Source: Patescibacteria group bacterium (GTDB taxonomy: Bacteria; Patescibacteriota; Gracilibacteria; Absconditabacterales; Absconditicoccaceae). From it: a DNA stretch of 64,000 bases. Both the position numbers and the translations under genes were made by a program. The stretch lies in contig JAGOPC010000002.1 in the NCBI GenBank assembly GCA_017992195.1, positions 1 to 64,000 on the forward strand, written 5' to 3'. Positions 14,841-50,893 of this stretch are shown piece by piece. Below the pieces are notes generated by a model. The model worked only from the letters and a program-made list of their open reading frames with translations. It did not search any database and was not told the origin of the DNA. Position 1 is the stretch's first letter; each line of letters starts with the position of its first letter.

Positions 14841-17288
14841 ATGCAAAATTTTATACTCATAGTTGTAGGTGTCGTCGCCATCCGGTTGTTGGGTGTTGGG
14901 ATGTATAGATCCTTCATTTTGCAGTGGAAGAAAAAATTTGCTTTGAAAAGGGCTGATGAGCTCAAATTTCTGCAGGTAAAGATACCGCAGAAGACCTCAG
15001 ACATGGATCAGAAAAATGACAATACGCAAAATATGAAACAGAACCTTGAGATCATGAATCAGGTTCTCAAGAACTTCTATGCGGTCTATTCGAACAAATG
15101 GAAAGCTAATTTTCTCATCCAAAATTATGTGAGTCTTGAGATGCTCGTGGAGAAGGAGCAAATCAAGTTTATGATCGGCGTACCGAAGGATTTTGTGGCG
15201 ACGATAGAAAAGAATATATCGTCGTTCTATCCGGGAGCGGTTATTGACTATGTCGATCAGCCCAAATTGCTCGACGCCGGGAAGTATGTCGGCGGCGGGA
15301 CGTTCACGCTTTCGAAGAAAGACGTGTTTCCTATCAAGACTTACGAGTCGTTTGAGGCAGATCCTATGGATTCTATTCTGTCTGCATTTTCGCGTGTCGA
15401 TAACGAGGAGAAGCTTTCTCTCCAAATATTGCTTGCGCCGGTCTCTGAAAAGGAGCAGGAGAAAATGAGAAAGTCGATAGACGATATTAAAGAGTGAAAG
15501 AAGAAGGAGACTTTCCGATCGATGTTTAAGGACATCATCCCAAAGAGCGAGAAGTCGAAGGAGAACAAACCTGAAAAAAAGAATACGAAATATTCGTCAC
15601 AACAGATGGGCGACCTCGACAAAAAGACCGAGGACGAACTTTATAATGTGACAATCAAGGCGCTTGCACTCTCTCCGCATCCGCATCGTATCGACATCAT
15701 TCTCAATGACTTGGGGCGCAGTATGAGCCAGTACGGTTATGTTGGTCTGAATTCTCTTAATTTCAGTAAAGTAAAAGCTGATCGTATCGGTGAGTTTACT
15801 AGTTCATTCGTAAATAGACTTTTTGATAACGGAACAAGCGTCACAAAATTTACTAAACGTCAACTTCTCAATATCAAAGAGCTGTCATCTATATTTCATT
15901 TTCCACACTATCGCTTCAATCGTTCCCCACGTATCAAGTGGCAAACGTATAAGATAGTGCCAGCGCCAGATGGCATCCCGCAAGACGGGATAGATCTGGG
16001 ATACAATCTGTTCGCCGGTGTGAAAAGAGTTATTAAGTTAAAAGATAAAGATAGATTCCGTCATTTCTATATTATTGGTCAGACGGGTACGGGTAAGTCA
16101 TCTATCATGGTGACGATGTTGAAACAGGATATCGAGCAGGGTCGTGGATGTATGGTGATCGATCCGCATGGAGAGCTCTGTGAGACAGTGATGAAATACT
16201 TTCCGAAGGAACGTATCGATGATCTCATCTATTTTGATGCATCGAATTTTGAGTATCCGTTGGGTGTTAATATTTTCACTGCGCAGACGGAAGATGAAAG
16301 AAATCTCATTGTGTCCGATCTGGTCGACATGTTTATCGGTATGTATGGTCATGAGATATTTGGGCCGCGTATTCAGGACTACTTTTCGAATGCAGCGTTA
16401 ACGCTTATGGAGCAGCCGGAAGGTGGAACGTTGACGGAGATCGTACGTATGTTTACCGATCCAGCATTTCAGAAAATTAAACTGAAAAATGTGACGAATC
16501 CGGTAGTGCGTAACCGGTGGGAGAAGACCTATGCATCGATGGGTGATCGTGAAAAAGGTGAGATGATACCGTTCTTCCAGGCGAAGTTTGGGCCGTTCAT
16601 CACAAACTCGATGATTCGTAATATCATCGGTCAGCCGAAGTCGTCATTTGACGTGAGCGAGGCGATGCAACATAACAAGGTGATTCTCGTGAATCTTTCG
16701 AAGGGTCTGCTCGGTGAGTTTAACTCGCAGCTCCTTGGACGTATGATGGTGACGCAGGTAAAGGTCGCTGCGCTTCGTCGTGCAGGTATGGCAGAGCATG
16801 AGCGCGTACCGTTCTATCTGTATATCGACGAGATGCAAAATTATGTATCGAAGTCTATCGAGTCTGTTTTGTCAGAAGCTCGTAAATATAAGCTGGGCAT
16901 GATCATGGCGCATCAGTACATTGATCAGCTTAAGCAGTCAAACCTTTGAGGTAACAACGACCTTTCACAGGCTATTTTTGGTAACGTCGGTAATATCCTT
17001 TCGTATCGTGTTGGTCCTACAGACGCCGAGTTCCTCGAGAAGCAATTCTCACCAGTCTTTAGTCAGCAAGATCTTATGAATCTCGACCAGTTCAAGTGCT
17101 GTTTCAAGATGGAGGTAGACGGTCAGTCGATCTCGCCATTCAGCATGAACTGTATCAAATACTTCCAGGAGTATGTAGCTCTCAACACAGCCGAAAAGGT
17201 TGCGGTGATGAAACAGATCTCTGCATTGAAATGGGGTAGAAAGAGAGAGTTGGTGGAGAAGGAGATTTATTATAGGGTGGGAGTGTAA
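14841..17288 (+). CDS. VirD4/TraG-like type IV secretion coupling ATPase
   Basis: 815 residues across two in-frame TGAs. An N-terminal membrane helix (about residues 4-25) is followed by a polar domain and then an AAA-type motor. Walker A is GQTGTGKS (413-420) and the Walker B-like YIDEMQNY has Asp663-Glu664. Between them is MVIDPHGELCETVM, typical of conjugative DNA-transfer ATPases, and near the end SYRVGPTDAEFLEKQF. Such proteins dock DNA or protein substrates to a T4SS or work in CPR pilus/DNA-uptake machinery. PrgI-like, VirB2-like and VirB6-like proteins occur elsewhere in the window; VirB4 does not. Confidence 0.88.
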
Positions 17289-17315
17289 ACGAGATTGTAG
17301 ATAAATTAATGAGAG

Positions 17316-17338
17316 GTCGCCTGAGAGGGTGGCTTTTC
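17316..17338 (+). terminator. Terminator after the VirD4-like gene
   Basis: GTCGCC (17316-17321) pairs with GGTGGC (17328-17333) using two G-U pairs, then TTTT. Modest strength. Confidence 0.5.
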
Positions 17339-17343
17339 TAAAA

Positions 17344-17370
17344 ACAAAAAAACACCCCTTATGCGGGGTG
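17344..17370 (-). terminator. Terminator for the minus-strand gene 17395-18015
   Basis: CACCCC (17353-17358) pairs with GGGGTG (17365-17370). Read on the minus strand the hairpin is followed by seven Ts. It lies 25 bases past the stop of the minus-strand gene. Confidence 0.85.
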
Positions 17371-17394
17371 AATGTTGTGATAGTAGGACTCTGT

Positions 17395-18015
17395 CTACGC
17401 TGCTTCGAGAGTACATTCGTGCAGTGCGAGTGTAATCAGCTCGGGTAGGGTTTTAAAAGGCTCTTCAGATTTTGATAATGCTGTAAAGAGCGTCGTGAAT
17501 CTTTCGCCGTACTGATCTAGTGTTTTGGGGAATCCCAACGAATGAAACTCTCCGAATTCTTTGACCATGGTCTCATAAATGAGCTCTCCATAGCCTTCAA
17601 ATAAGGGAATACCAAGTGTCGGTATAGCCAATTCAGTGCATCTTTCGAAGATCTGCATGCTGTGGTCGTCATAGCCACCTATACAGAGGGCTATGTCTGG
17701 TTTCTTATGTTGAAACATGCTGTTTATGCGTTTCGTCATAAGTGTGTCGTAGGAGGCGTCAGACATTATAAAATTCTTTCGTAGCTTTGTGTAGTGACGA
17801 ACGAAGCTGTCTTCGCTTGCTTGAATGCATGGAGCATAACAAGCGGTCGCTGTCTCTACATAACTGGCCAGATAGTCACCGGTCGCATTGATCAGGATGA
17901 CGTCATTTTTGGTCAATATCTCTTGTATGCCGCCTATAAGAGCCATCCATCTGTCAGTCATAATGGGGGCGGAGATGTTACCAAAGATCAGTAGTGTCTT
18001 TTTGTGATTACTCAT
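17395..18015 (-). CDS. Hypothetical protein, Rossmann-like
   Basis: 206 residues with no in-frame TGA. The N-terminus KKTLLIFGNISAP looks like the first strand and loop of a Rossmann-type fold, and IALCIGGYDDHSM with a following IPTLGIPLFEGYGEL resembles nucleotide or nucleoside-binding loops of LOG/TIR-like folds. The resemblance is loose and I do not assign a family. It has its own terminator and starts opposite a long gap, so it is probably a single-gene transcript. Confidence 0.7.
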   Translation of the reverse strand: MSNHKKTLLIFGNISAPIMTDRWMALIGGIQEILTKNDVILINATGDYLASYVETATACYAPCIQASEDSFVRHYTKLRKNFIMSDASYDTLMTKRINSMFQHKKPDIALCIGGYDDHSMQIFERCTELAIPTLGIPLFEGYGELIYETMVKEFGEFHSLGFPKTLDQYGERFTTLFTALSKSEEPFKTLPELITLALHECTLEAA

Positions 18016-18407
18016 AAGGATGATTTTTTTGTTTGAATTTCAATGTTAATGATGAAAACCCAGATTTCAAGTAATATCTACTCATTTGGCTAAAATCCGG
18101 GGTTTTGTCCGGCTTTTTTAGTAAACTTTAAGTACCGTCTTTGCATAATAATCGGCATGTAATAAGGCGCGTCTTCTTTCTATGCCAACTTATACCAAGC
18201 GCCTTTAGAATAACAAAAAAAGACCCGTATGGTCTATGGTCGTTTTTAAGGGAAGATCGATATGATACTACATTTATGTATAAAAGTCAACAGAAGAACA
18301 CAATATAGGATAACCTTAGGTAGGCTAAGATACTATATATTGTTGTTGACGATTATTCTGCGTTTCGTAATATACGGGAATAATGATTTAGATTGTAAAT
18401 CATTCTC
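18016..18407. other. Intergenic region before the arginine island
   Basis: 392 bases with no supported gene. A small open frame from 18262 overlaps the M20 peptidase in another frame and looks random. Two hairpin-like elements are present: one around 18096-18119 (CCGG repeats followed by six Ts) and one around 18221-18246 (GACC and GGTC followed by five Ts). They may be a leader with attenuators or terminators. The promoter of the downstream run of genes should lie here, but I could not pick one with confidence. Confidence 0.4.
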
Positions 18408-19775
18408 ATGTTATCTACTTATAAAAACAACCTCAATAATTTTATATCGTATAAGTCTGTTTCGACTGGTGAAGGTCATGAACAGGATATTGAGGACACA
18501 GTGAATTATCTTTCTGGCCTACTTTCTTGATGAGGATTTTCTGTGGACATCGTAAGAGGATATGGTAATCCAATAGTGCTCGCAGAGTATATGCATGATA
18601 GCTCTTTTCCTATATGTATCGTATACGGACATTATGATGTACAGCCTTCTGGCGATGCTGATAAATGGATAACTTGAAAGCCCTTTGAGCTTGTAGAAGT
18701 AGACGATAGACTCTACGCAAGATGAGCTGTAGATAATAAATGACAGATTATGATTCACATCACTACTATCTTGGAACTTGCGAAAAACAACAATCTGAAA
18801 TATAATATCAAATTTTTCATAGAATGAGATGAAGAGACTGGGGCGGCTGATATGGATAAGTTCACTGCAGACTACAAACAGCAACTTGCTGCTGATATAG
18901 CCTTAGTTTCTGATGGCGAAATTATCGGTGACAATATACCTACGATGGTAAAATCATTTAGAGGATGAGCAAATTTAGCTGTAAGTATAACAACAGCCAC
19001 CAATGATGCTCATGCGTGACTGTTATGAAACATCCTTCCAAATGCAGCATATCAGCTTATAAGCGTATTGGGAAAGATATACGATAAAAATAATATAATT
19101 ACAGTGCCCGGATTCTACGAGTGAGTGAATATAGATGCTAACATTAGAGAGAATAATGAGAAAATTCCTCTCGATATGCTCAAGATAAAAGAGATGTATG
19201 GAGCTAAGTGAACAGTTGTTCCCAAAGGATATGATTTCGCTACTGCGAATGGGCTCCTACCTACGATACAGATAAGCTGATTTGAAAGCTGATTTGTGAG
19301 TAACTACACATATGATTCACAAAAAGATCTGATAATGAAGACTGATGGAGGCTTCAACAATATTATTCCTGGGTCGGCAATAGCAAAAATGAACTTACGT
19401 TTTGCGCCATGACAGGATCCTGAGAGACTTACTAAGTGTTTTGAGAAATGGTTTGCAGCTCAGATGCCTTCATATGTAGAACGAAAGACGGTCTTTGATT
19501 CACCTTATCCTGCTACTGTTATCAATACTGATAACCAGTTGACGCTTGATACGATGCAACTTTTGGAGAACATATATCATCATAAACCAGTCTTGAGGTA
19601 CTGTGGCGCATCGGTGCCTATCACATGACTTCTGCAGGATTTTCTCTGACAGGAGGTTGTCGTTGTAGACCTTGGTAATGAAGACTGTAATATGCATGGT
19701 ATCAATGAGAACTTCAAACTTAATTGTGTGGAAAATGGGCTGCAGTTCAGTAAGCGCTTTTTTAGTAAAGAGTAA
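18408..19775 (+). CDS. M20 family metallopeptidase (dipeptidase-like)
   Basis: 455 residues. Di-zinc exopeptidase family that releases amino acids from short peptides. Metal ligands are seen in VYGHYDVQP (His75, Asp77), LYARGAVDNKG, FIEGDEETG, LVSDGE and a C-terminal His in CNMHG. The substrate loop RYCGASVPITG is also family-like. About fifteen TGAs encode Gly, so in a standard reading it nearly disappears. ATG 18408 opens the only frame that joins the N-terminal MLSTYKNNL to the conserved core. It is the first gene of the same-strand arginine island. Confidence 0.9.
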
Positions 19776-19899
19776 CCATATTATCCATTTATTATATATG
19801 CATAACTATGAAAATTATATCTCATTGCTTTGTATGGTCGGGAGAGTCGTAAGTAGATCGTAGCAAAATACACCCATCTTGCTATTCTTTATTTTTCTT

Positions 19900-21006
19900 A
19901 TGCATCCTCTCATGAATCGTATCGTAAAATTTGTAGAAGTGAAATCAGGTATCTGCGCGCCATGTGCTCGTTGAAAGTTAGGTGCCGAACTTGGAATCGA
20001 TGCTATTAAGAACGCTGCTATCACCAACGACTCATATCTTTTTGTAAAAGACTTTCCAGACAATGTTGTTGCGGTTGACATAGAAGATCAATGGAATTAC
20101 GCAAAAAATAATTTTGAAACATATAAAGCAGATCTACATTATAATGCGAAAAATGATCGTTTTGCTAGACATATCGCGTATCTCATAAATTCATGCACAA
20201 AAATCGCGAGCGCCGTAAAACAGACTCTCGATGAAAACAAGTTTCCTTTTGTGCTCGCCGGCGATCATTCAACAGCAGCGGGAACTATAGCCTGAATCAA
20301 AAAAAAATATCCAGATAAGCGTCTTGGTGTAATATGGATAGATGCGCACGCAGATTTACATTCACCTTATACGACGCCATCAGGAAATATGCATGGTATG
20401 CCTGTGGCTGTGGCTATGGGATTTGATAAGACAACAGCAGAGGAAGTACAGAAAGGTCTTGCTGCACAAAACCTTCATGGTAATGTCAACACATTAACTG
20501 ATAGTGAAGCTGCGCAGTGGGATGAACTTTGTCATCTTGGTGGAGTCTATCCTATGATCAAAAAAGAAGATATGGTATATATCGATATCCGTGATATCGA
20601 AAATGAAGAGAAATGGTATATCGACACATATGTAAAGCATTTCGATGGCGAATATCTGCAGGACCATGGTATAGATCATGTCGTAGAGCATACTCTGCAA
20701 CATCTCAATAACTGTGATATGATCTATGTGTCATTTGATATAGATTCAATTGATGGAAGAATAGTGCGTGGGACAGGAACTCCAGTGAAAGACGGACTCA
20801 CACAATATCAGGCGCAGGAACTCTTAAAAGCGCTTTATAAGTCAGAGAAGCTTGTGTCTCTGGAGATTGTCGAAATTAATCCGTTGCTTGATGACGTGCC
20901 TGGAAACAGCGTTGATGTCGACGGAGTAAGTAAGGCTTGTCAGTTCCAGACGCGCAATGGTACTGCAGAAATAGCGTTCAATATTATCAAATATATACTA
21001 CAATAA
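19900..21006 (+). CDS. Arginase/agmatinase/formiminoglutamase (ureohydrolase) family, probable arginase
   Basis: 368 residues. Binuclear manganese enzymes of this family hydrolyse arginine to ornithine and urea, or related guanidino compounds. Motifs are LAGDHS, WIDAHADLHSP (metal-binding DAHAD), SGNMHGMP and VSFDIDSIDG. The length and MHGMP motif favour arginase over agmatinase, but substrate cannot be proven from sequence. Two in-frame TGAs. The start could also be the ATG at 19912. It lies 24 bases before argS and within a cluster of arginine genes. Confidence 0.9.
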
Positions 21007-21030
21007 TTTTACTCAATTACCGCGCGAAGA

Positions 21031-23193
21031 ATGAATGATATTATAAAGCTCCCTGAAGATGACCATAAAATCAATGGTTCTCCATCTTTCCCTGTCACTA
21101 TCAATGAGATAGATTCACTTTTTCAGTGAACAAACAATATACAGGAGTATAACGACAGTCTCGATTTTTACATAAAGAAAAAGATCGCATTTCTCGATAA
21201 GAAGAATGCTGCGAAGCAGCACATAGAGAGGGCAATCTATCTGAAAAATGAACTTGTAGATAGGCTCAAGAATGATGTGATTAACTATGCAACTATTCTG
21301 TGAATAAACGATCTTACCGCTGATGATATACTCGTAGAGTTCATTGATCGTGCAAATTTTGGTACAGATATGACAATTAGAATGACATCTCTGATTAAAA
21401 AACTAGGTAAAGAATATAACAGTATGTTTCTTCCCGGATTGGTCAGTTACATGAAGGAAAACAACAGTGATGCGCAGGATGTTCAGTATAAAGGCATCTA
21501 TCTCAATATTCGTCTCAGTGATGAGCAATTGCTTTCTATGCTCGATCAGTCTATAAAGATGGGAGAACAGTATGGAGAAAGTGATATTCATGCGGGTCAG
21601 ACTATGATAGCAGAATACTCAAGTCCTAATGCCGCTAAGCATCTTCATGCGGGACATATCAGATCGACAGTGATCGGACAAATTCTTGCGAATATTTATG
21701 AAAAAACCGGCTACGGCGTTCATAGACTCAACCATATCAACGACCGAGGAGGGTTTGGAGAACTGATTGAATGATATGATCGTTGGTGAGCAAAGCTACA
21801 GGCGGAGTGATATACAGGTAATGACTTGTCATTTATGATATATTCCATCTATAGAAAAGCGGAAAAGGCGGTTGATGTTATTCAAGAGCAATGAGTGGAT
21901 TCCGTGAGCGAAGACGATAAAACATTCCTTAAAGATTATTTTGACTTTAGTGATGGAACATCGCTCGTGGCGGCTTTCGAGGACTACAAGACCAATTCAA
22001 CAGAAAGATTTCGTAGCCTCGAAGATGCGTGACAGCATGAGTTCGAAGGATGGAAGAAAATCTTTGGTTGGAGCCTAGAGGAGTTCAATAAATTTTATAA
22101 GGCATTGGATATCACACACGATTTTGTGATAGGTGAAAGTTTCTATGAGAAAATGGGTAAAAATATTGTGCAGGAGTGAATGGATAAATGAATTATCGTT
22201 CATTTCACTAAGGATATAGCTGATGACTACTATGCGAAATACCTTGAGGAGAATAAGGACCAAGGTGAGAATGTAAAAGAACAGAAGTCTAAAGAGATCT
22301 ATGAAGATGTGGGTTCATATGTGGCGTTGTTGGATAAGTATGAAAGATATGTGGTGATGAGATCGGATGGTGCTAGTATTTATGCGACAAGAGATCTTGG
22401 ATGTTTGTATTACAGATGCATGAACCGGGATCCTGAAACAGTAATGTATGAAGTATGACAGGAACAAACAGATCACTTCAACAAGCTTTTTGAAACAGCC
22501 AGAAAGTTCGGATGGGATAAGATGAATGATGGGAATACAAGAAAATTCCTGCATATCTATCACTGATTTTACGTAAATGCAAAAGATAAGAAGAAACTTT
22601 CTTCAAGAGAGTGAGCAAGTAATGTACACAATCTTATCAAAGAATCAGAAAAGTACTTCCATGAGAAATACGCATCAAAAAACAATTTTGAGGATGAGGA
22701 GATTAGTAACATCTCGAAGACTCTTGGGAAGGCGAGCATCATTATCAATGACATAAGAAAGGCAAGAACCAGTCCTGTATATGTAGATAGCGACCTTCAG
22801 AAAGCGCTAGCAGGCTTTGAAGAATCGGGTGGTCCATATCTGATGTATACTCTCTGCAGAGCAAAAAGTTTGCTTAAGAGAGCAGAAACGGATAAATTGT
22901 CACAGAATGTCGAAGAAGACTTGTCGCAAGAAAATGGCTTGGATAATATAGAGTCTGAGATCATAAAGAAGATAGCGATGCTTTCTGATATGATGATCAA
23001 GGCGAATGAAGAACACGAACCTTCTATACTGGTTGATTATGTTTATGCGCTTACGCAGCACTTCAATACCCTCTACAGTACTAAAAAATACCTCAGCTCA
23101 AGTAAGCTCGGTGTACGCATAACTAAGGGGTATATAAATGTTATGGCAAATGTCCTTAAGGTGTTTAACATCCAACCTTTGGAAAGAATGTAG
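21031..23193 (+). CDS. argS: Arginyl-tRNA synthetase
   Basis: 720 residues, longer than the usual 550-590. Class I synthetase that charges tRNA-Arg. Visible are EYSSPNAAKHLHAGHIRST (HIGH-type site HAGH), NHINDRGGFG, the KMSKS-like KKLSSREGAS and the C-terminal anticodon-binding DALR-like domain (SILVDYVYALTQHFNTLY). An insert between about residues 250 and 400 explains much of the extra length. There are many TGA glycines, including SREG next to the signature loop. Placement between arginase and the PEP-synthase-like gene is unusual. Confidence 0.95.
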
Positions 23194-23218
23194 TTTTTAC
23201 TATTATTATTCGTAAAAG

Positions 23219-26179
23219 ATGTCAGGCGAAATAATAAATGATGAATCTCTCGGTTTTACTATAACAGCATATGGGCATAAGAAAGAAAATGCTCCCAATG
23301 GTTCTGTAAGTGCTGGGAAATATCTTCCTATGTGAGGGAAAACTTTAAATCTTATGGAACTTGCTGAGTTTGCAAATAAGCGGTGATTTACTATCCCAGC
23401 AGGATATGGGCTCGGTTATGATGCTCATATGCATTACATCGAACACAATAATCTTCCTAGTCGCCTTATCGAAATTGTACTATTGATGAAGGAGCGCCTT
23501 GGAGGTAATATAGCTATCAGAAGTTCAGGAAATGTGGAAGATGGTAGTAAGGCAAGTGCTGCAGGAGTCTTTGAATCTCTTTATATTAGGGGTACTAAAG
23601 TAAAATTAGAGCATGGATGGGAAGACTTTGGGAGCGATCAGGCAGCAGTGGAATATGTTGTAAGGAAGATATATGATACGACTAGAAGCGATGGAGCTAT
23701 AGAATATTTTGCTAAAAATGATGTGAAGCCGGAGGATATAAAGATGTGACTTAGTGTGCAGAGACTTCTTGAAACGCCTATAGTTGCGTGAGTGATATTG
23801 GCTTCTCATGGCGAGGAGGGTAAAAGAGAAGTCTACGCAAATTACGTCGTTAATGATTTTGGCAATGTGATTGCTGACGGACATACGCCAGGAAGTTCTA
23901 TTTTTTTAAAAGAAGGTGTTGTACTTAGTCATGTGCAGAATTTTGACTCTCGTCAACGCGAGACTATGAGCGAACTGGCAAGTCATATAACAGAAGGCGT
24001 CGTGGATATCCTTGCCGGTAGTATTATGGACTCATATGAGTATTCAAATGGTGATATAGAATTCGCTATAGATAAAAATGCTTTCATCGAATTTATGGAT
24101 GCATTTGAGACAGAACATAAAGATGAGATATTGTCGTTATTTCAGGATATGGTAAGCGTTGATCAGTCGTTCGAACCTCATGTAAATAAACTTTTTGATG
24201 GATTGATGTATATTGCTGATGTTAGAAAGAATGAAACAGCGGAGCCAATCGTGGTTTATTTAAAAGTTACTAGAAGGGTCGCAGATCTAATCGATGGCTT
24301 GAAAAATATGCATGCGCTAATACAGGCGATGCCAGATAATCATGAACTAAAGACTCAGTACGGAAAAATTCTAATGAAGTTGATATCCGTACTTCAGTAC
24401 AGAAATCTTGTAAGACCTATGCCAAAGTATAATCCTAATGCAAGAGGTTCTCTCTCAAGCATTTATAACCCAGACGATACAGATAAACAAGAAATAGATG
24501 GTGTGGTAGTGAGAGTTGAAGATTTCAAAAGCGTGCATGAGATCGAGGCGGCTATAAAGGAATATAAAGCTGAAGGGCTGAAGGTGATTTTTGTCGGTAA
24601 GTCTCCTGCCATCGAGCATGAACATGCGCTTGCCTTGTCGCATGCAACGTTATTGGAGCGCTCAGGATCATGATCTCACATAGCGCTGAGAGCATGAGAA
24701 TGGAAGAAGCCTGCAATCGGTGGATGTAAGACAGATCACCTTCATTCCGGCCTGCATCTTGTTCTCGATTCTGATAAAATGACGCTTATAAATCAAGAAG
24801 GACACGATATACTTGAACCGCTCTTTACGGGAGAAAATATTAATCAGGAGTATATCAACGAACATCTTGCATTCACAGAGCAATATATCTTTACGAATGA
24901 ACCAACTGTAGATGAAGCAAAGAAATGGCTTCATGAGAAAATAGCAAAAGCCTGTGATAAAGAAGACGCTGATATCTTATCATCTATCCTTGAAGATAAT
25001 TGCGGCGCAATTCAACAAGCTACAAAAGAGGACTATGAAGAGTTGTGATTTGATTCGTGTCAGACGAATAGAAAGTTGTCTAAAATCATTGCACAAGTGA
25101 TGCTTATCGGTGGATATATATATGAGTCAGAAGTGCTCTGATATGCTGTATCGGTAGATGAAGCCATTACATATCTGAAAACGGATGTCTCTATTAGACC
25201 CGAATATCATACTCAGATAATAGATATCGCAAAGAAGTATGGTTCTAATCAGGAGTTTCTTTATCCTGGTGTAACGCCGTCAACGTCTGATACTAAGCCC
25301 TTAAAAGAGTATATTGATGATGTACTTATGTGAAAACCATCGGTGTCAGTAAGGGCTGTAACATGAGTTGGAGGTATAAGAAATGATAAGCTTTGGAATG
25401 AGGCTGTAGACTTTCAAAGTTTCCTTTCGCTCAAGATATGAGAAGATAAAAGATATTATCCTGGTGTAGTGCTGATCCGCCAGCTTTGTGAGAATGAACC
25501 GGCCAATATTCCTGCAATACAGTCTGTAAAAAATGATAATCTATATCTTTATGAAAAACTTATAGAGTTGAGAAGATCTATATTATCACAAAAAGAAAAC
25601 GTCGTAAGAGATGTAGCTATGCTTTGTTCGGCATATTTGCCATGAAAACTAAAGGGGGAGGTATATGCTGCAGCAGAGCCAAAAAGCATAGACAATATGT
25701 CGCTTCGCCTTTTGCAAGCATACCATTCACCAAGATCTGAATTAGATGCATTCCTTAAAATGCTTGAGCAGTTCGTGCAATGAGAAGAGATAGACAGTAA
25801 GAAGATAGATATTGTGTTTCATGAACTGGATATACAGATAAAATCTATGCAGACATTCAACTCTACGCTTCACATTCCATGGGCTTCATGACTTGCAAGT
25901 ATAGCAAATGGTATGATAGGAAACCTGAGGAATAGAGCTGGAAATTCGGCTATAAGATATGGGGTTGGTCGTGAAGATAAAAGCTTTGAGATCGTTCAGT
26001 ACGATTTGGCAAATGGTAAAACAAGCTATGTTGCTAAGATATATAACAATAAGTTATTTGGAGGGAAGCCAGTTGAAAGCTTTGTTATAAATGCAGAGCA
26101 TCCTATCAGAAAAGAGATAGAAGAAATGGGGTTTCTGCAGACAGCTATTAATTATCTGGGAAATTATTCGTCAATGTAA
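23219..26179 (+). CDS. PEP synthase/PPDK-like protein with unrecognised C-terminal half
   Basis: 986 residues in one frame over many TGAs. The N-terminal part resembles the ATP-grasp domain of PEP synthase/pyruvate phosphate dikinase: AIRSSGNVEDGSKASAAGVF (about residues 100-120) matches the family AVRSSA.xED..xSFAG. A swivelling phospho-histidine-like domain follows: ERSGSGSHIALRAGEWKKP with His487 in the place of the phosphorylated His. The PEP-binding TIM barrel expected next is not recognisable; the last ~430 residues are unknown. The canonical TSH reads GSH. It could be a diverged dikinase or phosphotransferase. It lies 33 bases upstream of arginine kinase. Confidence 0.7.
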
Positions 26180-26212
26180 ATTTCTTTATTTTATTCTTAT
26201 ATTTTAACAAAA

Positions 26213-27316
26213 ATGAATAGCATATTCCAAATCTCAGACTCTCTTACTGCCAAAGAAATACTTGCTCGCCTTGCTGAATGATCTTCACTGACTTACAAGG
26301 TGCTGGAAAGCGCATGAGAAGAGTATGTGCAAAAATTACTTGATCGAAAAACTCCATATGGTAAAAGTTTCATTCATCTCATCTCTTCAGGTCTTCATAA
26401 TCCTTCTAGCGAGATAGGTGTGTATGCAGATGGTGCTAAAACATATGAGGATGAACTATTTGGAGATTTTTTCTCAAAAATCATCCACTTATATCATGGG
26501 TTCGATAGAACTACGCAGAAACATACAGAGAACTTTGATATAGATGATATCGCCGTGGAAGATCTGAATGCGCATGCTACTGACTCATGTAAAGCACTTT
26601 CGGTTCGTGTCAGATATGCCTTCGCTTTAGACAACTTTCCATTCCAGTCGGCTATGACGCGCGAGCAAAGGAAAGATGCAGAATCAGCAATATGTGCAGC
26701 ACTTGATAACTTGCCGGAAGTTCTGCATGGCACCTATGAGTATTTGGAAAATATGAGCGCGGAGCGCAGGCAGCAGCTTATAACTGAGCACTTCCTGTCG
26801 CCTACTGAAGAGGATCCGTTCCTTGTAAATGCAGGTATGACCACTGACTGGCCTATAGGAAGAGGAATATATCTTTCAAACGATAAGACCTTTTTCACGC
26901 TTGTTAATGACGAAGATAATCGTGTCGGAGTGCTGGAGCAAGGATGAGATATAAAGAAAATATTTCAAAAGCTGGCGTCTGCAAATCATATATTCAATAG
27001 CTATCTTCGTATAGCGCGTAATGCTACTTATGGGAAGCTCGTGAGTTGTCCTACGAATATAGGAACAGGAATGCGTCTGAGTGTCATGTTGACGCTTCCT
27101 AAGCTGGCTCAGGATATGGATGCGCTTAAGAAGAAGGCAAAAGCTCTTTGACTGTCTGTCCGTGGCCACTATGGTGAACACTCAGGAGTATGATCTAGAT
27201 GAGAAGTGGACATCTCAAACAAGGCGCGTCTTGGTATATCAGAAAGAGAGATAGCGCAACTTGTCTATAACGGCGCACGTGAACTTATGAAAATGGAAAT
27301 AACATATACCTCATAG
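26213..27316 (+). CDS. Arginine kinase (phosphagen kinase), full length
   Basis: 367 residues, the size of animal arginine kinases (about 357). Transfers phosphate between ATP and a guanidino substrate. The N-terminal phosphagen kinase domain is present: LDRKTPYGKSFIHLISSGL and SEIGVYADGAKTYED, aligning with the substrate loop SGVGIYAPDAE. The catalytic domain has VRVRYAFALDNFPF, WPIGRGIYLSND, VNDEDN (Glu234), SCPTNIGTGMRLSVML (reactive Cys279), RGHYGEHSG (Glu322) and DISNKARLGISE. RGHYGEH and DISNKARLG are arginine/creatine kinase-like and unlike McsB. Six in-frame TGAs show it has been in this recoded lineage a long time. The usual NEEDH reads NDEDN, with a one-residue deletion after it. 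Confidence 0.93.
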
Positions 27317-27409
27317 TTTATGTTTTATTTTCGACATAGACGATCACTTTACATAAATATACTTCACTCAATGCAGAGTGGTTTTATCTGTAACATCTAA
27401 CTTTGAGAT

Positions 27410-28432
27410 ATGAATATTATAGACCTGCATGAGGATCGATCTGACAATGCCCTTTGTACAACGCATAAGGATTTTTTCGCCACAAATCATACTGACTGAT
27501 GGAACGCCGAAAAGATGGATGCTCTTAATCAGGTAGACCTTAAGAGGCTGCAGAAAAGTAAGGTTTCGGCTGTGATCGGAGCGATTTTCATAGACCCTGA
27601 TGCTATGATAACCACAAAAAATGATACACTGTGTTATCCTATCGATGCTGCTAGTTTTGAACTATGACGCCACTTGAAATACTATGATTGGGTGATCGAA
27701 AAATCAGCATGAGCTATCTATCAGATACTTTCGGGATTAGACTTGTCTGCTGAGGTGATGGCCTCATGAAAGATAGGGCTGCTCAAACATCTTGAAGGTT
27801 TTTACTTTGCTCGCCCGTTGGACAAAAACTTTGATATTCTGGATGATGTCTATGCGAAGTGAGTGAGATCAGTTGCCATGACCTGGTGAACAAGCTCTAA
27901 TATGGCAGGCGGGAATGATAAAAATGAGAGAGGCCTCAATGATATGTGAAAAAGATTTATAGAAAAACTTGCATCGAAAAAAATGCTTATAGATCTTGCG
28001 CATGCAAGCCAGAAGTCTTTCGAGGATATTATGCAGATAGTGAAAAAACCTGTGATGGTGTCGCATACGAAAATTACAGATAGGAGAGATAAAGCAAGAT
28101 TTCTGACAGTTGATCAGGCTAAAAAAGTGGCTGATGGGGGCGGAATCATAGGTATTATGACTATGAAATCTGAAGATGATCAGTTCTCTCTCGTAGATCT
28201 CGAAAGTTATGTTAAGCACATCAAACAGGCTATGATAATAGCGTGAGAGGATCATGTCGCGATGTGAACAGATTTTGACGGACTTACTAAAGAACATAGT
28301 ATAGAAGGCTTCATTGATATATGAAAAGTAGATCTCCTTATTATAGAGATGAAAAAACAAAATCTGAGTGATGCGCAGATAGAAAAATTCCTTGGAAATA
28401 ATGCATTGAGATTTATACAGGAAAACATATAG
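27410..28432 (+). CDS. M19 family membrane-dipeptidase-like peptidase
   Basis: 340 residues. Zinc dipeptidase family (renal dipeptidase type). Metal-site motifs are IDLHEDRSDN near the start, LIDLAHASQKSFEDI, KPVMVSHTK and GTDFDGLT near the end. Ten TGAs encode Gly, including the Gly of GTDFDG. No signal peptide is seen, so it is probably cytoplasmic and acts on imported or intracellular dipeptides. It lies 93 bases after arginine kinase. Confidence 0.88.
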
Positions 28433-28470
28433 ATACATCGTTTTTATCTTATTCCCACCTTTATGGTTCT

Positions 28471-29865
28471 ATGGCAAAATCAAAATTTATAGACCTTATG
28501 AAACAAACCTATGATTTCCCTTCAAAAGGTTTTGACCTTCACAGAGGCGCACTCACTTTCCAATGACTCGATCTTATGAAGCTTGTAAAGAAGTATGGAT
28601 CACCATTAAAGATAACCTATCTTCCTAAGGTGGCTCACCAGATTAAATACGCAAAAGATCTTTTTGACAAAGCAATTCACAAGCACAACTATCATGGAAA
28701 ATATACATATACGTATTGTACAAAAAGCTCTCATTTTAGCTTTATTCTCAATAAGGCTATAGATTCTGGTGCGCAACTTGAGATATCTTCAGCGTATGAT
28801 ATTTTGCTTATTAGAAAACTTTACAGTGAGAAAAGAATAGATAAGTCGATCCTTGTCATCTGTAATGGTTATAAGAGTCTGAACTATCTTGAAAATATTG
28901 TTTCATTGTGGAAAGAGGGATTTAAAAATATCGTCGTTGTGTTAGACAACCAGGATGAGATAGACAAGCTCGAAAAACTTGTAGATGAAGGAATATTTAA
29001 AATTGGTATAAGAATTGCCACAGAAGAAGAGCCAAAGTTTGAACAATATACTTCAAGACTTGGGATGAGCGCAAAGGATGTCGTGAAATTCTACAAGACA
29101 CACATCAAGAAAAAGAAGAAATTTCAGCTTGTTATGATGCACTTTTTCATAAACTCTAAAGTGAAAGATAATGCGTATTACCGGAGTGAACTTTCAAGGC
29201 TAGTAGAAGTATATTGTGATCTTAAATATGAGTGCAAAACTCTAGAGTTTCTTGATATTGGAGGAGGATTCCCGATTTGTACGGCTTTAGATATGGAGTA
29301 TGATTATGAGTATATGATAGATCAGATAGTTTGGTCTATCCAGCATATCTGTGATGCGAATGATATAGATACTCCAAATATTATTTCTGAATTCTGATCG
29401 TATACAGTAGGTGAAAGCTGAGCTATCATCTATAAGGTTATCGGAACAAAGCAGCAAAATGAAAAAGAAAAATGGTATATGATCAATAGCAGTTTCATTA
29501 CGACCCTTCCAGATACTCGGTGAATAGGGCAAAAGTTTATCATGCTCCCGCTCAATCTCTGGAATAAACCATATGGAAATGTAAATCTTGGTTGAATCAC
29601 TTGTGATAGCGATGACTACTATGATAAGGATAATAAATGAAATCAGATCATCCTTCCGGAGTATGGTAAAGAAGAGGACCTCTATATCGGGTTTTTCCAT
29701 ACAGGTGCATATCAGGAATCTATTGGAGGATACGGAGGAATACAGCATTGTCTTATACCAGCACCAAAGCATGTTATCATAGATGAAATTGGTGGAAAAC
29801 AGACTATCCATGAATTTGCTCCTGAACAGGACGCTGAACAAATGCTTAAGATATTATGATATTAA
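28471..29865 (+). CDS. PLP-dependent arginine decarboxylase-like protein (SpeA/fold III)
   Basis: 464 residues. Alanine-racemase-fold decarboxylase. YTYCTKSSHF holds the likely PLP lysine. Further motifs are GIRIATEEEP, TSRLGMS, MMHFFINSKV, FLDIGGGFPI (PLP phosphate loop), ISEFGSYTVGESGAI and HTGAYQESIGGYGG. These patterns follow biosynthetic arginine decarboxylase (SpeA), which makes agmatine for polyamines. SpeA is normally ~630 residues, so this is a shorter form. Diaminopimelate or ornithine decarboxylase activity is the alternative. Seven TGAs, one of them three codons before the stop. Confidence 0.8.
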
Positions 29866-29874
29866 TTTCTTTCT

Positions 29875-30372
29875 ATGTCGAACGATAAAATTGTGTTTTT
29901 GGACTGTGATGAAACATTGTGGACTTCTCCTAATAAGGATCGAATATGATCCGTGCCGGGCTCATTTGAAGTGATCGACAATAATGCAATTGTAAGATCA
30001 GATAGCGCTGTTTTTACACTAAAAAAAGACGTAAGACAAGCTTTGGGTGTTCTCAGGGATAGGTGATTCTGCTTATGAATCATAAGTGATAATATAGCGC
30101 AGCAAGTGGCTGAGGTGCTAAATCTTTTTCATCTTAGTGATTTTTTTGATCAAAGATTTATCTCTGTTGAACTCCGGGAGTCGGAAAAGCAACGCTGTCC
30201 TAAAGAGCAGATGATTAAAAAGCTTTTGGAAAAACATGAGTGAAACTCATTTAAAGAGGTCTATCTTGTGGATGATAAAGACTACAGACAGGCGATGCTT
30301 GATAATGGATATAAGTTTATCCACTCACAATATCCTTCGTTGCTGTCTGATATAGAGGAACTTGTGAAGTAA
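29875..30372 (+). CDS. HAD-superfamily phosphatase-like protein
   Basis: 165 residues. Motif I FLDCDETLWTS carries the nucleophile Asp, motif II is ISDN, and motif IV is YLVDDKDYR. The DCDETLW form is close to magnesium-dependent phosphatase-1/HAD III types. Four TGAs. It starts nine bases after the decarboxylase stop and is the last gene of the island before the terminator at 30441. The substrate is unknown. Confidence 0.85.
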
Positions 30373-30440
30373 CTCGTTGTAAATGGCTGTATTGAAAAAT
30401 AGCTGTTATTTTGTAATAAATTCTTGCATTTTCCCAGCTA

Positions 30441-30468
30441 AAACCTAGTATCTAACTCTAGGTTTTTT
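30441..30468 (+). terminator. Terminator at the end of the arginine island
   Basis: AACCTAG (30442-30448) pairs with CTAGGTT (30458-30464), then Ts. It lies 20 bases before alaS, so it separates alaS from the preceding run of genes. Confidence 0.85.
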
Positions 30469-30487
30469 ACATTCCGAAGGCTCATAG

Positions 30488-32347
30488 ATGACACTTAACT
30501 CCGATCAGATCAGACAGAAATATGTCGAATATTTCACTAAAAACGGACATGCACATATCGAGGCGGCGAGACTTTTGCCACAAGGTGATAGCTCATTACT
30601 TTTCGTGAACTCGGGGATGTTTCCACTTGTGCCATATTTATTTGGAGCAGATCATCCTGCAGGTACAAGGCTCGTAGATTATCAGCGCTGTTTTAGAACA
30701 GTAGATATTAACGAAGTTGGTGACCACAGACACACGACATCTTTTGAGATGCTTGGAAACTGGAGTCTCGGAGATTATTTTAAGAAGGAACAAATAGAGT
30801 TTTTGTTCACGTTTCTTTTTGACGAACTAAGTATAGATCCTTCAAAGATTTATCAGACTGTTTTCGGTGGAAGCGAAGAAGTCCCTGCTGATGCAGAAGC
30901 AATAGCTTTTATTAAAGAACAGTTCGCTAAGCGTAATGTCTCTGCAGAGCTATGACCCAAGACAACAGGTATCGGTGAAGATGGTCCATGAGTAGAGTGT
31001 GATTTTACGACACAAAGAATATTTGAATATTGAGATGACAAGAATCGGTGGCAGAGAGAAAAAGCTATCGGCGAACTTGGTGGTCCAGATAGTGAAACAT
31101 TTTATGATTCGGGTAAAGAGCATAATCCTGCATTTTGACCCTACTGTCATCCAAACTGTGATTGTGGTCGTTTCATCGAAATTGGAAATAGCGTCTTTAT
31201 GACCTATGTTCTCAGAGAAAGCGGTTGGGTTAAACTTGATCGTCAAAATGTAGACTTTGGTGGAGGACTTGAAAGAATAACTATGGCGGTTCAGTGATTG
31301 GGTAATGTCTTTAAGACAGATATATTCTCTTCATATATTCAGATATTGGAAGATCAGTATGGTGTCAAATACGAGGATCACGCAAAAGATGTCGAGGTGA
31401 TTGTTGATCATATTAGAGCTATCGCATGGTTGATCATGGACGGAGCATTGCCGTCTAATAAAGACCAAGGTTACTACCTCAGACGTTTGATCAGAAGAGT
31501 AGCTTCAAAGTTACAATTGCTTGGTGTAGATATGCAGGCGATCAATGTGTTGCTCGAGGCTGTGATAGAGAAACTTGGAAACACTTATACTGAGATGAAA
31601 GAGAAGAAAGAAGAGATCATGGCGGTCGTGGGTAAAGAAGTAAAAGCGTTTTCACAGAATCTGAAAAGTGGGTTACAGCATTTTGAAAAAGTTGTTGTAC
31701 GTGAAAATGGGATCAGTGCGGATGATGCATTTTTGTTGCAGACGTCGTATGGTTTCCCGATAGAGCTCATTATAGAGATCGCGAATGATAGAGGTTTGAA
31801 TGTGGATGTTGATGGATACAAGGCGAAGATCGAAGAGCATAAAAATATTTCTCGTCAGGGTATGGAGAAGAAGTTCAAGAGTGGGCTTGGAGATACGGGT
31901 GAGCAGACGGTGAAGTATCATACTGCGACGCATCTGTTACATCAGACCCTCCGTGATGTGCTTGGCGAACACGTGCAGCAGAAGGGATCGAATCTGACCG
32001 CTGAGAGACTGAGATTTGACTTCTCTCATCCGACTGCGATGACGAAGGAGCAAGTTGCTGAGGTGGAGCAGAGAGTTAATAATTTGATCAAAGATGGTTT
32101 CGCGGTAAGTGTGGAAACGATGAAGACTGATGACGCATTTGCAAGTGGCGCGCTCGGATTTTTCGGTGATAAGTATGGGCCAGAAGTGACTGTCTACACG
32201 ATGACAAATCCGCATGGTATTGTTATCAGCAAAGAAATTTGTACTGGTCCGCACGTGCAGAATCTCGATGGATTCGGTAACTTTAGAATTACTGAAGAAG
32301 CGAGTGTCGCGGCTGGAGTGAGACGTATCAAGGCTATTTTAGAATAA
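30488..32347 (+). CDS. alaS: Alanyl-tRNA synthetase, lacking the C-terminal domain
   Basis: 619 residues; typical AlaRS is about 870. Class II core motifs are present (FVNSGMFPLVPYLFG, RLVDYQRCFRTVDINEVG and FGGGLERITMAV), followed by the editing domain with HTATHLLHQTLRDVLG and the Cys/His site CTGPHVQN. The protein ends at ASVAAGVRRIKAILE, directly after the SAD/editing module, so the C-Ala (DHHA1-like) domain is missing. Five TGAs, one within the motif region. The stop is TAA and the next gene is 105 bases away, so this is an evolved short form and not a broken gene. Confidence 0.95.
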
Positions 32348-32379
32348 TATCACACCATCATATATTGTCGAGAAAAAAG

Positions 32380-32401
32380 CAGGCCTAAGGCTTGTTTTTT
32401 G
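32380..32401 (+). terminator. Terminator after alaS
   Basis: CAGGCC (32380-32385) pairs with GGCTTG (32389-32394) over a 3-base loop, followed by six Ts. Confidence 0.75.
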
Positions 32402-32452
32402 TTATGTGTTTCGTATCTTTGGGAAGATTTATTTGCATAATTTTTCGTCTTC

Positions 32453-33715
32453 ATGAAAAAGGGAAACTATAAGAAATTAGTGCTGTTAGCTGTTGCCGGA
32501 GCTGGTATAGCGCTTGCTGGTTGTGGAAACTCAGCGACAAACATGTCATTTGATAATACGTATACTGCTTTCTGGGACGGTCATACGAGTAAGGCTCTGA
32601 AGATGTTTAACAATCTTGCAAAAGCGCCAGCACTCCGTGAAAAGGGAAATTACACACTAAGCGGTTCAGTAAGCGGCGGCGTGTCTGTTAATCTTGCTAT
32701 TGATGCTACGTCAAGTGTTTCAAATCAAGGGCTAGATACTGATAGCTCTATTACTATCAAGTGAGATGCAAATCAGGAAGGTCTTGATGACAAGATCTCG
32801 CTTGATGCGGGCATCTTGTTTAAGATGATCGCTGGTCAGTCGTATATCAATCTTTCAAAGTTGTCACTGAACTCAGCAAAAGGAAATCCACAGATCAGCA
32901 TGATCGGAGCGTTCTCATCAGTGCTGACAAACAAGTGGATATCGCTTACAAGCTCAGGTGTAGATACCTCAGCTGCTATCAAAGGACTTAATCTTTCAAA
33001 TCTCTACACGCTTCCTGCTGTCGCTGTGCAGTCGATAAAAGACCATCCTATTTTCAAAGAGACAAGCAAAGAGACGATTGACGGTAATCCTGTCTACCAT
33101 ATAGCACTTGATGCAACAGGTTTATATCTCGTAGCTAAAGATGTTATTTCTAACGACGCAATCAAAGCATTCTTACAGGGGCAGACATTCACTGATGCGG
33201 AACTTATGGATCGGGCAGTTGAGTTCGTCGCAAACTCTGCTTTCAAGGGTACGCTTACTGCACATAGTAAAGACAATATTGTGCTTGCTATCACTAACAT
33301 GAATCTCGATGAGACAGAAGGATTGAAAGGAATCGTAGAAGAAGATAAATCTCATTTTGACATCGTTGATCTTGCTCCAAATGGAAGCGGAATCATGGCT
33401 ACTATCGATATGACAGAGAAGGGAGACATGACGACATTTGCTATAGCGGCTCCTATGGAATCGTTCTCACTACAGGGAGCGATCGATATAAATAAGGCGA
33501 CTGCTGAAAAGATTGCGTACGCTCTTACGATTCTTGTTATGCATCCTAATTTCGGTGTTGATCTTCGCGGAGATGTAAATATCGAAAAGGCTGCTGCGAC
33601 AACTATAGAGGCGCCTGCGTCATTCCAGACCATAGATGATCTTCTTTGAGGGTTTAGTTCGCTCATTGGTTCAGGTGCAGCCGGGATAGCGGATATGAGC
33701 GATAGTGTAAAATAA
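32453..33715 (+). CDS. Lipoprotein of unknown function
   Basis: 420 residues. A clear lipobox ends the signal peptide (IALAGC, Cys at about residue 24). The mature protein is rich in Ser, Asp and Leu with alternating hydrophobic strands, reminiscent of large beta-sheet lipid or ligand-binding lipoproteins, but I recognise no named family. Two TGAs: after SSITIK and near the C-terminus (DDLLGGFSS). The LCP wall protein begins 42 bases later. Confidence 0.8.
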
Positions 33716-33757
33716 TAATAAAAAAAGAATTTATCTTTGTGAGGTAGTATATTTTTC

Positions 33758-35218
33758 ATGGCATTTCAAAAAAAGAAGATACGTTCGTATGATGACGATG
33801 GTAATTTGACCGAGTACTCTCTTGATCAGTGAGGGAAGGGGAGAAAGATCGTTATCGCACTTATCGCGATAGCAGTCTGTTTTGGTGTCGTACTTTTCGC
33901 ATGGGGAGCTATGAGACCATATCTGCAAAATAGCATCAATCGGGTAGGTCGCGGCGCCGTGACAGTGATCAGCAAAACTGTTGGTACCGAGCCGAAGACT
34001 GACGATCAGGGACATATCAACGCGTTGATCTTAGGCTACGGTGGCGAACAACACGCGGGCGGATATCTGTCTGATTCGATGATGATCGCATCGTTCAATC
34101 CGAAACGTGGTGGCGTGGCGTTTGTCTCTGTTCCAAGAGATCTCTACATCGCGAAAACGTTATGAGGTTATGGAAAAATCAATGGTGACTTCGCATCGCT
34201 TTACTATTCGTACGAGAAAAACTTCATCGCAGCGGCGAGTGGGTTTGCGGAGAAGATTACAGAAATCACAGGAGTGCCTATCCAGTACTATTTCATGATT
34301 GATTTTCTTGGATTCGAATTGCTCATTGATAAACTTGGGGGAGTCGATATTGACGTCCCATATAATATTCATGATACGACTTATCCTGGGCCAAATAACA
34401 GCTATCAGACATTTTCTATCACCATGGGTATGCAGCATATGAGTGGCTCGACCGCACTGAAATATGCGAGAAGCAGGCATACCACTTCTGACTTTGCGCG
34501 CAGTCTCAGACAGCAGCAGATCATCAAAGCGGTCATGGAAAAGATATTCTCATTTGACAATGTTACTACACCAGGCAGGATAAAATCTCTCTATGCTGAC
34601 TTCCAGCATGTCGTGCATACAAATATGACCGTTGATGAGATGATCGGAAGTATGCAATACGCATATAAGATCAAAAAATTCTCATCGTTCCAATATTCAG
34701 TCTGTACGAACTATCGCCGGGAGACGACTGTTCCGGGCTGTCTTCTCTTCAATCCGCCGCTAGACGCATTTGGCTCATCGGTCGAACTCCCTATCGAAGC
34801 GACGCCGTCAAATGTCTCAGAGTACAAACTGCTCCGCTCATTTGCACAACAGGTAGTCTACAACGACGGCTATCTGGTCGAAGACGCAACGATCCGTATT
34901 CTCAATGGGCTCGATACCGGTCATGCCAGAATGCTTACCGAAAGAAGCATCGCGAGCACTACGGCTATGGCTTTCATGAAGATGGGCATGAAGGTCTTTG
35001 ATGTTGGCAACAATCCAGCACCATACGAGCAAACAACTCTCCTTATCAACGGCACAGGAGAGTATACTGATACCATTAACCAGATGAAAAAAATTATTTC
35101 TATCCCGCTTGTCACGACAGGTACATACACACCGGATGGCCCATCCCTCACGCTTGTATTAGGTAATGACTACATAACCTCTCCAAAACCGGAGAGACCA
35201 TTATTCTTGAACTATTAA
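33758..35218 (+). CDS. LytR-CpsA-Psr (LCP) family protein
   Basis: 486 residues. One N-terminal membrane helix (VIALIAIAVCFGVVLFAWG region), then the extracellular LCP domain: ALILGYGG, LSDSMMIASFNP, SVPRDLYI and ALKYARSRHTTSDFARSLRQ. The Arg and Asp residues of these motifs bind the pyrophosphate lipid. LCP enzymes attach polymers such as teichoic acids or capsule to peptidoglycan. A LytR C-terminal-like domain follows from about residue 370. Two TGAs near the start and one after AKTL. Confidence 0.92.
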
Positions 35219-41004: not shown

Positions 41005-41580
41005 ATGAAAGCAACAAAAAAAGCATTTACGCTTATCGAAATGCTGATAGTGATTGTGATCATTGGTATCCTTGCTGCGGCATTAGTACCAAGACTTATT
41101 TCCGTACAAGGAAGAGCAAGAGATACAAAGCGTAAAGCAGATATTTCACAGATCGGTTCTGCGCTTGCGATCTATAAGACAGATAATTCTACTTTCCCTG
41201 CTACTTCAGGTAGTTCATTTGCCGTTCTCGCCCCATTGCTTAGTGGGTACCTTACAACCACACCTACTGATCCAGTAAGTACTGCAAGTGTTTCTCCTGA
41301 TATCGCTGGTGGTTATTCAACGGGGTATGGCTATATCTCTATCGTAAGAAATGGAGTAGCAAGTAATGCGGCTGTGCTGATGGCACAAACAGAAAGTGAC
41401 GGAGCAAGTTCAAACTTTATGAGTAGTGGAACTCTTATCTCTCATAGTGCAGATGCAGGAGCTCTCGATAGTTTGCTCGCCGGATGTAATGGTAGAGTAG
41501 CAAAGAGTACAGCATGGTCATGGACTGCTGGTTCATGTACCGGACCGATGACAGGTATGAGATACTACTATACTGAATAA
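41005..41580 (+). CDS. Type IV pilin-like protein, copy 1
   Basis: 191 residues. Class III signal MKATKKA then FTLIEMLIVIVIIGILAAALVPR; cleavage would be after Ala, where Gly is usual. The mature part has a DTKRKADISQIG helix and a C-terminal pair of Cys (LLAGCNGR and AGSCTGP) that could form a D-region disulfide. No TGA is used. A near-identical second copy follows after a terminator. It is likely a major pilin of a CPR type IV pilus used for attachment or DNA uptake. Confidence 0.93.
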   Translation: MKATKKAFTLIEMLIVIVIIGILAAALVPRLISVQGRARDTKRKADISQIGSALAIYKTDNSTFPATSGSSFAVLAPLLSGYLTTTPTDPVSTASVSPDIAGGYSTGYGYISIVRNGVASNAAVLMAQTESDGASSNFMSSGTLISHSADAGALDSLLAGCNGRVAKSTAWSWTAGSCTGPMTGMRYYYTE

Positions 41581-41645: not shown

Positions 41646-41748
41646 ATTTTCGAGAAAAGATCTTTCCCTTGCAAAGGTGATGATGCTTTTTTATAACCTC
41701 TGTATCGAAAACAGAGAAAAGGTTTTATCCTTTGATTCCGTTGGTTTT

Positions 41749-50809: not shown

Positions 50810-50893
50810 TGCCTGGAGGGGGACTCGAACCCCCACTTCCTTGCAGAAACCAGATTTTGAGTCTAGCGTGTCTACCAGTTCCACCATCCAGGC
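50810..50893 (-). tRNA. tRNA-Leu (anticodon CAA)
   Basis: On the minus strand the acceptor GCCTGGA pairs with TCCAGGC, D stem is GTG/CAC, anticodon stem CTAGA/TCTGG holds loop CTCAAAA (anticodon CAA, reads UUG), a long variable arm marks it as class II, and T stem GGGGG/CCCCC holds TTCGAGT. Discriminator base is A. The 3' CCA is not encoded. A small frame overlapping it is an artefact. Confidence 0.96.

Follow-up and report, generated by a model that had tools for sequence, protein, structure and literature searches.

The window analysed here is a stretch of 64,000 nucleotides from a TGA-recoded bacterium of the Gracilibacteria. It contains a gene for a phosphagen (ATP:guanidino) kinase at 26213..27316 (+), which is read from ATG to TAG under code 25 as a protein of 367 aa. 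The gene is one of eight co-directional genes that extend from 18408 to 30372 (+) with gaps of 10-104 bases, alaS being next. The first of them encodes an M20 family dipeptidase (18408..19775, +; PF01546, E = 2.7e-24; NF006053, 266 bits against a cut-off of 441). It is followed by an arginase with the motif TTPSGNMHGMP (19879..21006, +; TIGR01229, E = 2.5e-65, 220.8 bits against a cut-off of 227.6), a second, divergent arginyl-tRNA synthetase (ArgRS; 21031..23193, +; TIGR00456, 240.6 bits) and a 986-aa ATP-grasp (PPDK_N)/phosphohistidine protein (23219..26179, +; PF01326, E = 7.8e-15; PF00391 sub-threshold). Downstream of the kinase are genes for an M19 dipeptidase (27410..28432, +; PF01244, E = 3.9e-52), a SpeA-like, PLP-type arginine decarboxylase (28471..29865, +; NF003763, E = 3.8e-51, below the cut-off) and a HAD-IIIC phosphatase (29875..30372, +; TIGR01681, 54.6 bits, over the cut-off). 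The alanyl-tRNA synthetase gene alaS (30488..32347, +; NF002436, 592 bits), which gave a single clear copy in a search of the bacterium's own genome, is probably a native gene downstream of the block. The preliminary description of this DNA had missed the arginine cluster; the position of the kinase within these eight genes is the new observation here, and it is the strongest clue to function.

A search of the same genome also revealed a canonical ArgRS on another contig (C14, L106:2633-4555; 321 bits), to which the cluster ArgRS is 21-27% identical, in pieces. This one reduced genome hence encodes two ArgRS, one canonical and one divergent, and it belongs to a group in which the meaning of some arginine codons has changed. 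Over 692 residues, the cluster enzyme shared 38% identity with the ArgRS of G116, a further TGA-recoded genome from the class, in which TGA makes up 75-96% of the glycine codons. In the arginine cluster of G116 (L121:1340-10891), the ArgRS gene is followed by a SpeA-like gene and preceded by argG, argH and genes for an N-acetylglutamate-synthase-like GNAT protein, an AstE-like deacylase and an ATP-grasp dipeptide-ligase-like protein. As the ArgRS-SpeA adjacency is repeated in G116, the association with arginine genes is present in a second lineage; a phosphagen kinase is absent from the G116 cluster. The other cluster genes were not found alongside a phosphagen kinase in the other genomes examined, and an arginine deiminase was not found in the kinase-bearing genome itself (59% complete).

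Domains, catalytic residues and predicted structure

The kinase had been described as full-length with both phosphagen kinase domains, and the Pfam searches bore this out. The N-terminal domain, which includes the specificity loop (26213..26485, +), matched PF02807 (ATP-gua_PtransN) at residues 26-91 (E = 3.7e-10, 40.6 bits against a gathering threshold of 25.7), and the C-terminal catalytic domain (26681..27298, +) matched PF00217 (ATP-gua_Ptrans) at residues 157-362 (E = 1.9e-50, 171.6 bits against 22.4). The sequence matches in the PDB were arginine kinases, with E values down to 5e-106.

From the alignment to the Limulus enzyme, we observed that the catalytic glutamates E225 and E314 correspond to E234 and E322 of the kinase, the reactive cysteine C271 to C279, and the nucleotide-binding arginines R124, R126, R229, R280 and R309 to R132, R134, R237, R288 and R317, respectively. 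The tail motif DISNKARLG is present as well, so that the residues listed in the preliminary description (Cys279, Glu234, Glu322 and this tail) are all in place. Also as described there, the motif NEEDHLR is changed to NDEDN-R (residues 232-237), with one residue deleted between the equivalents of E225 and R229, just before R237. In Daphnia arginine kinase, the H227A substitution costs just 18% of the activity (PMC8839106), so the change of H to N at this site need not kill the enzyme.

Structure prediction, which had been suggested as a check, was performed with AlphaFold2 from an alignment with 39 bacterial relatives. The resulting model (pLDDT 88.8, pTM 0.87; less confident at residues about 190-220 and in the loop near 321-330) had as its top Foldseek match 1bg0, the transition-state complex of Limulus arginine kinase in its closed state; the nucleotide-binding residues are kept in the sequence. 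In the VIA-align comparison, the model superposed on 1bg0 with Z 42.3 and 2.2 A over 349 residues, a score that creatine kinases tie, and on the shrimp arginine kinase 4bg4 with Z 42.0. A common predicted fold with arginine kinases does not by itself prove function. The altered NEEDHLR motif, the loss of a residue pair at the substrate site (D62/R193, see below) and a long branch of 3-4 changes per column in the tree could mark a decaying or non-catalytic remnant; against this stand a frame that is open over 367 codons, the retention of every catalytic residue and the confident fold, and we consider a remnant very improbable. On the sequence and the model, it is very likely that the protein has working phosphagen kinase activity.

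TGA recoding and composition of the block

Translation of the kinase (P0001) with code 25 places six TGA codons at G23, G35, G245, G313, G327 and G330. Two of these fall at columns conserved as glycine, namely 245 (Gly in 84 of 92 rows of the alignment) and 330 (79 of 92), as expected where TGA means glycine; the columns of the other four are mostly non-Gly in relatives. TGA accounts for 6 of the 26 glycine codons, a share for which no difference from other tested genes was seen (p = 0.62), and for 18% of the glycine codons in the longest ORFs of the window as a whole. The unremarkable share together with the TGA codons at glycine columns makes it probable that the gene has long been translated with TGA as glycine, and the proposed adaptation to code 25 is supported in this sense. 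Absconditabacteria have reassigned the arginine codons CGA and CGG, and some Gracilibacteria have reassigned CGG (PMC8629427); neither codon was found at the catalytic arginines of the kinase.

The nine genes from 18408 to 32347 are the run of nine with the lowest GC3 in the window (permutation p = 0.003), and TGA makes up 23% of their glycine codons, compared with 18% (p = 0.04). Low GC3 and increased TGA fit an arrival from, or an exchange with, a lower-GC TGA-recoded genome, and this 14-kb block may have come from such a genome. The earlier statement that the kinase was not acquired very recently fits its TGA use, but has to be set beside this possible origin of the block in another TGA-recoded genome. 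Repeats of at least 20 bases that could mark island ends were not seen in 16000-35000, nor was a tRNA gene found near the block, the only one of the window being at 50810.

Two other regions of the window were noted for their codon use. At 299-4141 (+), the gene for a subtilase of 1280 aa that carries PKD/Ig domains and a Por_Secre_tail has 0 TGA among 117 glycines; the gene after it (4298-5041, +) has 0 TGA among 14 glycines. Por_Secre_tail is a sorting domain for type IX secretion and is typical of Bacteroidota. The subtilase gene lies at the very start of the contig, where the contig end may be chimeric or DNA from a Bacteroidota cell may have been transferred recently. Further along, two type IV pilin-like genes next to each other (41005-41580 and 41677-42324), with the same mature start (MKATKKAFTLIEMLIVIVIIGILAAALVPRLISVQGRARDTK...), have no TGA and are probably a recent duplication.

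Substrate site and function

The specificity loop of the kinase, S66-E67-I68-G69-V70-Y71, aligned with S63-Y68 of Limulus without a gap. It has the length typical of arginine kinases and keeps the Limulus residues S63, G66 and Y68; G64 is replaced by E67, and glutamate occurs here in one of the 80 bacterial relatives listed. At the sites of the D62/R193 pair typical of arginine kinases, this protein has S65/P202. The D62/R193 pair is found in all sampled animal arginine kinases and in 79 of the 80 bacterial relatives listed (E/R in the remaining one), and creatine and taurocyamine kinases are likewise without it. It controls the synergism of substrate binding and is not known to control specificity itself, and it is a strong correlate of arginine kinase (EC 2.7.3.3) that lies outside the definition of that activity. 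Its conservation has been remarked on before, and in the spider enzyme the carboxylate and the amino group of arginine are held by the G64-G66 backbone and Y68 (PMC5598448).

Gene context and loop length favour L-arginine as the main substrate and the missing D62/R193 pair disfavours it; judged from these sequence features, L-arginine is probably the main substrate, and the earlier name "arginine" kinase is likely to be right with this reservation about the pair. Taken together, we are inclined to regard the protein as a working phosphagen kinase that most likely catalyses ATP + L-arginine <-> ADP + phospho-L-arginine in a TGA-recoded CPR bacterium of the Gracilibacteria/Absconditabacteria type, and this whole reading appears reasonably probable from the sequence. 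The kinase would then buffer ATP reversibly in a cell that can make little ATP itself, a role to which we give an even chance. The dipeptidases of the cluster would free arginine from peptides and thereby feed the kinase, and the arginase, the decarboxylase, the ArgRS and the kinase would draw on one arginine pool as alternative outlets.

The kinase could instead act on another guanidine, above all agmatine, which would be the product formed from arginine by the neighbouring SpeA-like decarboxylase encoded two genes downstream. The absence of D62/R193, as in creatine and taurocyamine kinases, would suit such a substrate, and agmatine kinase activity (EC 2.7.3.10) has a reported precedent in the protists Euglena and Ochromonas (PMC6429109). 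However, the positions that contact the amino-acid end of arginine, Y68 and the G66 backbone, are retained in a loop of arginine-kinase length, and the decarboxylase, scoring below the SpeA cut-off, could use another substrate. We regard a guanidine other than arginine as unlikely.

The abundance of arginine-consuming and peptide-cleaving enzymes in the cluster would also suit a kinase that works mainly in reverse, converting phosphoarginine taken up from the cytoplasm of a host or prey into ATP and arginine, the latter to be degraded by the cluster. Relatives live as epibionts or predators, which agrees with such a use. But no phosphoarginine importer was identified and, to our knowledge, most bacteria have no phosphoarginine, so that mainly reversed use seems very improbable.

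The 986-aa protein encoded next to the kinase brings in a further reading, in which the cluster yields a P-N arginine product. This protein and the kinase would each form N-phosphates, and the second ArgRS (present in addition to the canonical one) would serve self-protection or Arg-tRNA supply. The protein has a PEP-synthase-like ATP-grasp plus phosphohistidine layout and weakly matches NF004508. Campylobacter L-glutamine kinase has a PEP-synthase-like layout too. That enzyme N-phosphorylates an amide (PMC6429109) and provides a precedent. Against a P-N product, no export, ligase or tailoring genes were seen in the block, this type of ArgRS also accompanies plain arginine metabolism in G116, and the single-sequence structure model of the 986-aa protein was unusable (pLDDT 38.9); the chance of such a product appears very small. 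The C-terminal ~470 residues of the 986-aa protein match no family, and a search for homologues in 49 genomes of the family and 117 of the class gave one marginal match in the class and none else in the family. In a related and highly doubtful reading, the block 18408-30372 would be an arginine module that is mobile among TGA-recoded CPR. Its guanidino kinase, whose specificity site is non-canonical, and its PEP-synthase-like ATP-grasp/phosphohistidine enzyme, both of them unusual phosphotransferases, would make an N-phosphorylated arginine or agmatine compound for a use other than as a classical phosphagen, e.g. as an exported or stored product.

Distribution and relatives of the kinase

The phosphagen kinase domain was present in two of the 353 genomes of the class, namely the source genome and G005, which belongs to the same family; 379 genomes spread over the phylum gave no further carriers. 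The G005 kinase (L088:3534-4676, -; also L002) is full-length and lies on a TGA-recoded contig directly downstream of pyruvate kinase. With so few carriers, lateral gain, perhaps twice, would be simpler than more than 350 losses. We propose that lateral transfer probably brought in the kinase gene, either by itself or together with the cluster, at a time remote enough for TGA-Gly codons to have become established. A viral carrier was considered and rejected: viral contigs, searched with the kinase and with its 986-aa neighbour, and a phage collection gave no full-length relative, the phage matches being McsB-like pieces. In the plasmid search, only a plasmid of Candidatus Bandiella woodruffii carried a near full-length relative. 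On this plasmid (L084:3854-4951), the phosphagen kinase is annotated as a hypothetical protein and has transposase genes downstream; the bacterium is a Rickettsiales symbiont of the ciliate Euplotes.

A search of GTDB contigs with two patterns found 173 bacterial relatives, 80 of which were listed, mostly MAGs of Campylobacterota. Bacterial phosphagen kinases had been called known but rare; with 173 in GTDB this is too strong for bacteria in general, and it holds for this class, where they are very rare. The kinase is about 39% (37-41%) identical to the 80 listed relatives, 36-39% to animal arginine kinases, with 39% to that of Limulus, and 31% to human creatine kinase. The Desulfuromusa MAG G696 encodes, in addition to a normal phosphagen kinase, a second, divergent one with NEGD for NEED (L085:3022-4254).

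In the tree, the kinase falls outside the group of animal and Campylobacterota kinases (SH-aLRT 92; 93/89 in another tree), and constraining it to the main bacterial clade was nearly rejected (p-AU 0.055). The term "animal-type" used earlier is valid for the architecture alone, since the trees place the kinase outside this clade: the Campylobacterota kinases are closest in sequence (about 39%) and there is no nesting among the animal enzymes. When constrained with the G005 kinase, the p-AU was 0.525, by which common ancestry is neither shown nor rejected. A grouping with the Bandiella kinase had weak support (52/77), which rose to 90/94 for the branch separating these two from all other rows when other long rows were removed; the two have in common 18 residues that are rare elsewhere, compared with at most 10 for any other row. 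This grouping may be long-branch attraction.

Placement within the McsB protein-arginine kinases was rejected on architecture and curated scores: the N-terminal PF02807 is present, the protein ends where the extra C-terminal domain of McsB would begin, and the McsB equivalog scores are 115-118 against cut-offs of 385-500. McsB formed its own clade (100/100). In the catalytic-domain tree, joining the kinase with McsB is allowed (p-AU 0.617) because the tree cannot order the long-branched rows near the root, which took no stable order, and for this reason the exclusion rests on the former evidence.

The phosphagen kinase is genuine and intact, and it is divergent. It belongs to a known family and is not a categorically new enzyme; its host is unexpected, and the arginine cluster around it is informative. 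Phosphagen systems belong to the textbook physiology of animals and protists, and the bacterial cases are limited in number. In the literature searched, no previous account joins arginine kinase with Gracilibacteria, nor arginine kinase or a phosphagen with CPR/Patescibacteria among the top ten of 342 matching papers, an absence that is not proof, and the phosphagen energy store may extend into this group. Two very different phosphagen kinases in one minimal, TGA-recoded family suggest that an ATP buffer can be gained by lateral transfer. Whether a phosphagen store sustains bacteria that have hardly any pathways for making ATP becomes a testable question, and the kinase, with S/P for D62/R193, offers a natural specificity-site variant for the study of substrate choice in the family.

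Compared with known systems, the kinase has the fold, loop length, E225, C271, E314 and R124/126/229/280/309 in common with the animal arginine kinases (Limulus 1bg0 and shrimp 4bg4; 38-39% identity), and differs from them by D62->S, R193->P, G64->E and NEEDHLR->NDEDN-R. The arginine kinases of Campylobacterota and other bacteria (Sulfurovum, Desulfotalea, Moritella and Myxococcus) are, like the kinase, single chains of two domains, and those listed, mostly from Campylobacterota, have the same catalytic residues. However, NEED(Q/E/H)LR and D62/R193 are both retained in the listed bacterial relatives, which form a clade close to the animal enzymes, whereas the kinase differs at these sites, lies outside that clade and, unlike them, is encoded within an arginine cluster in the genome of a TGA-recoded CPR bacterium. 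The Bandiella plasmid kinase is 34% identical and keeps NEEDHMR. The G005 kinase, also from a TGA-recoded genome of the same family, is 27% identical and has R280->K. McsB resembles the kinase in the chemistry of the catalytic domain (26% identity over 247 columns), but it is without the N-terminal PF02807 and has an extra C-terminal domain.
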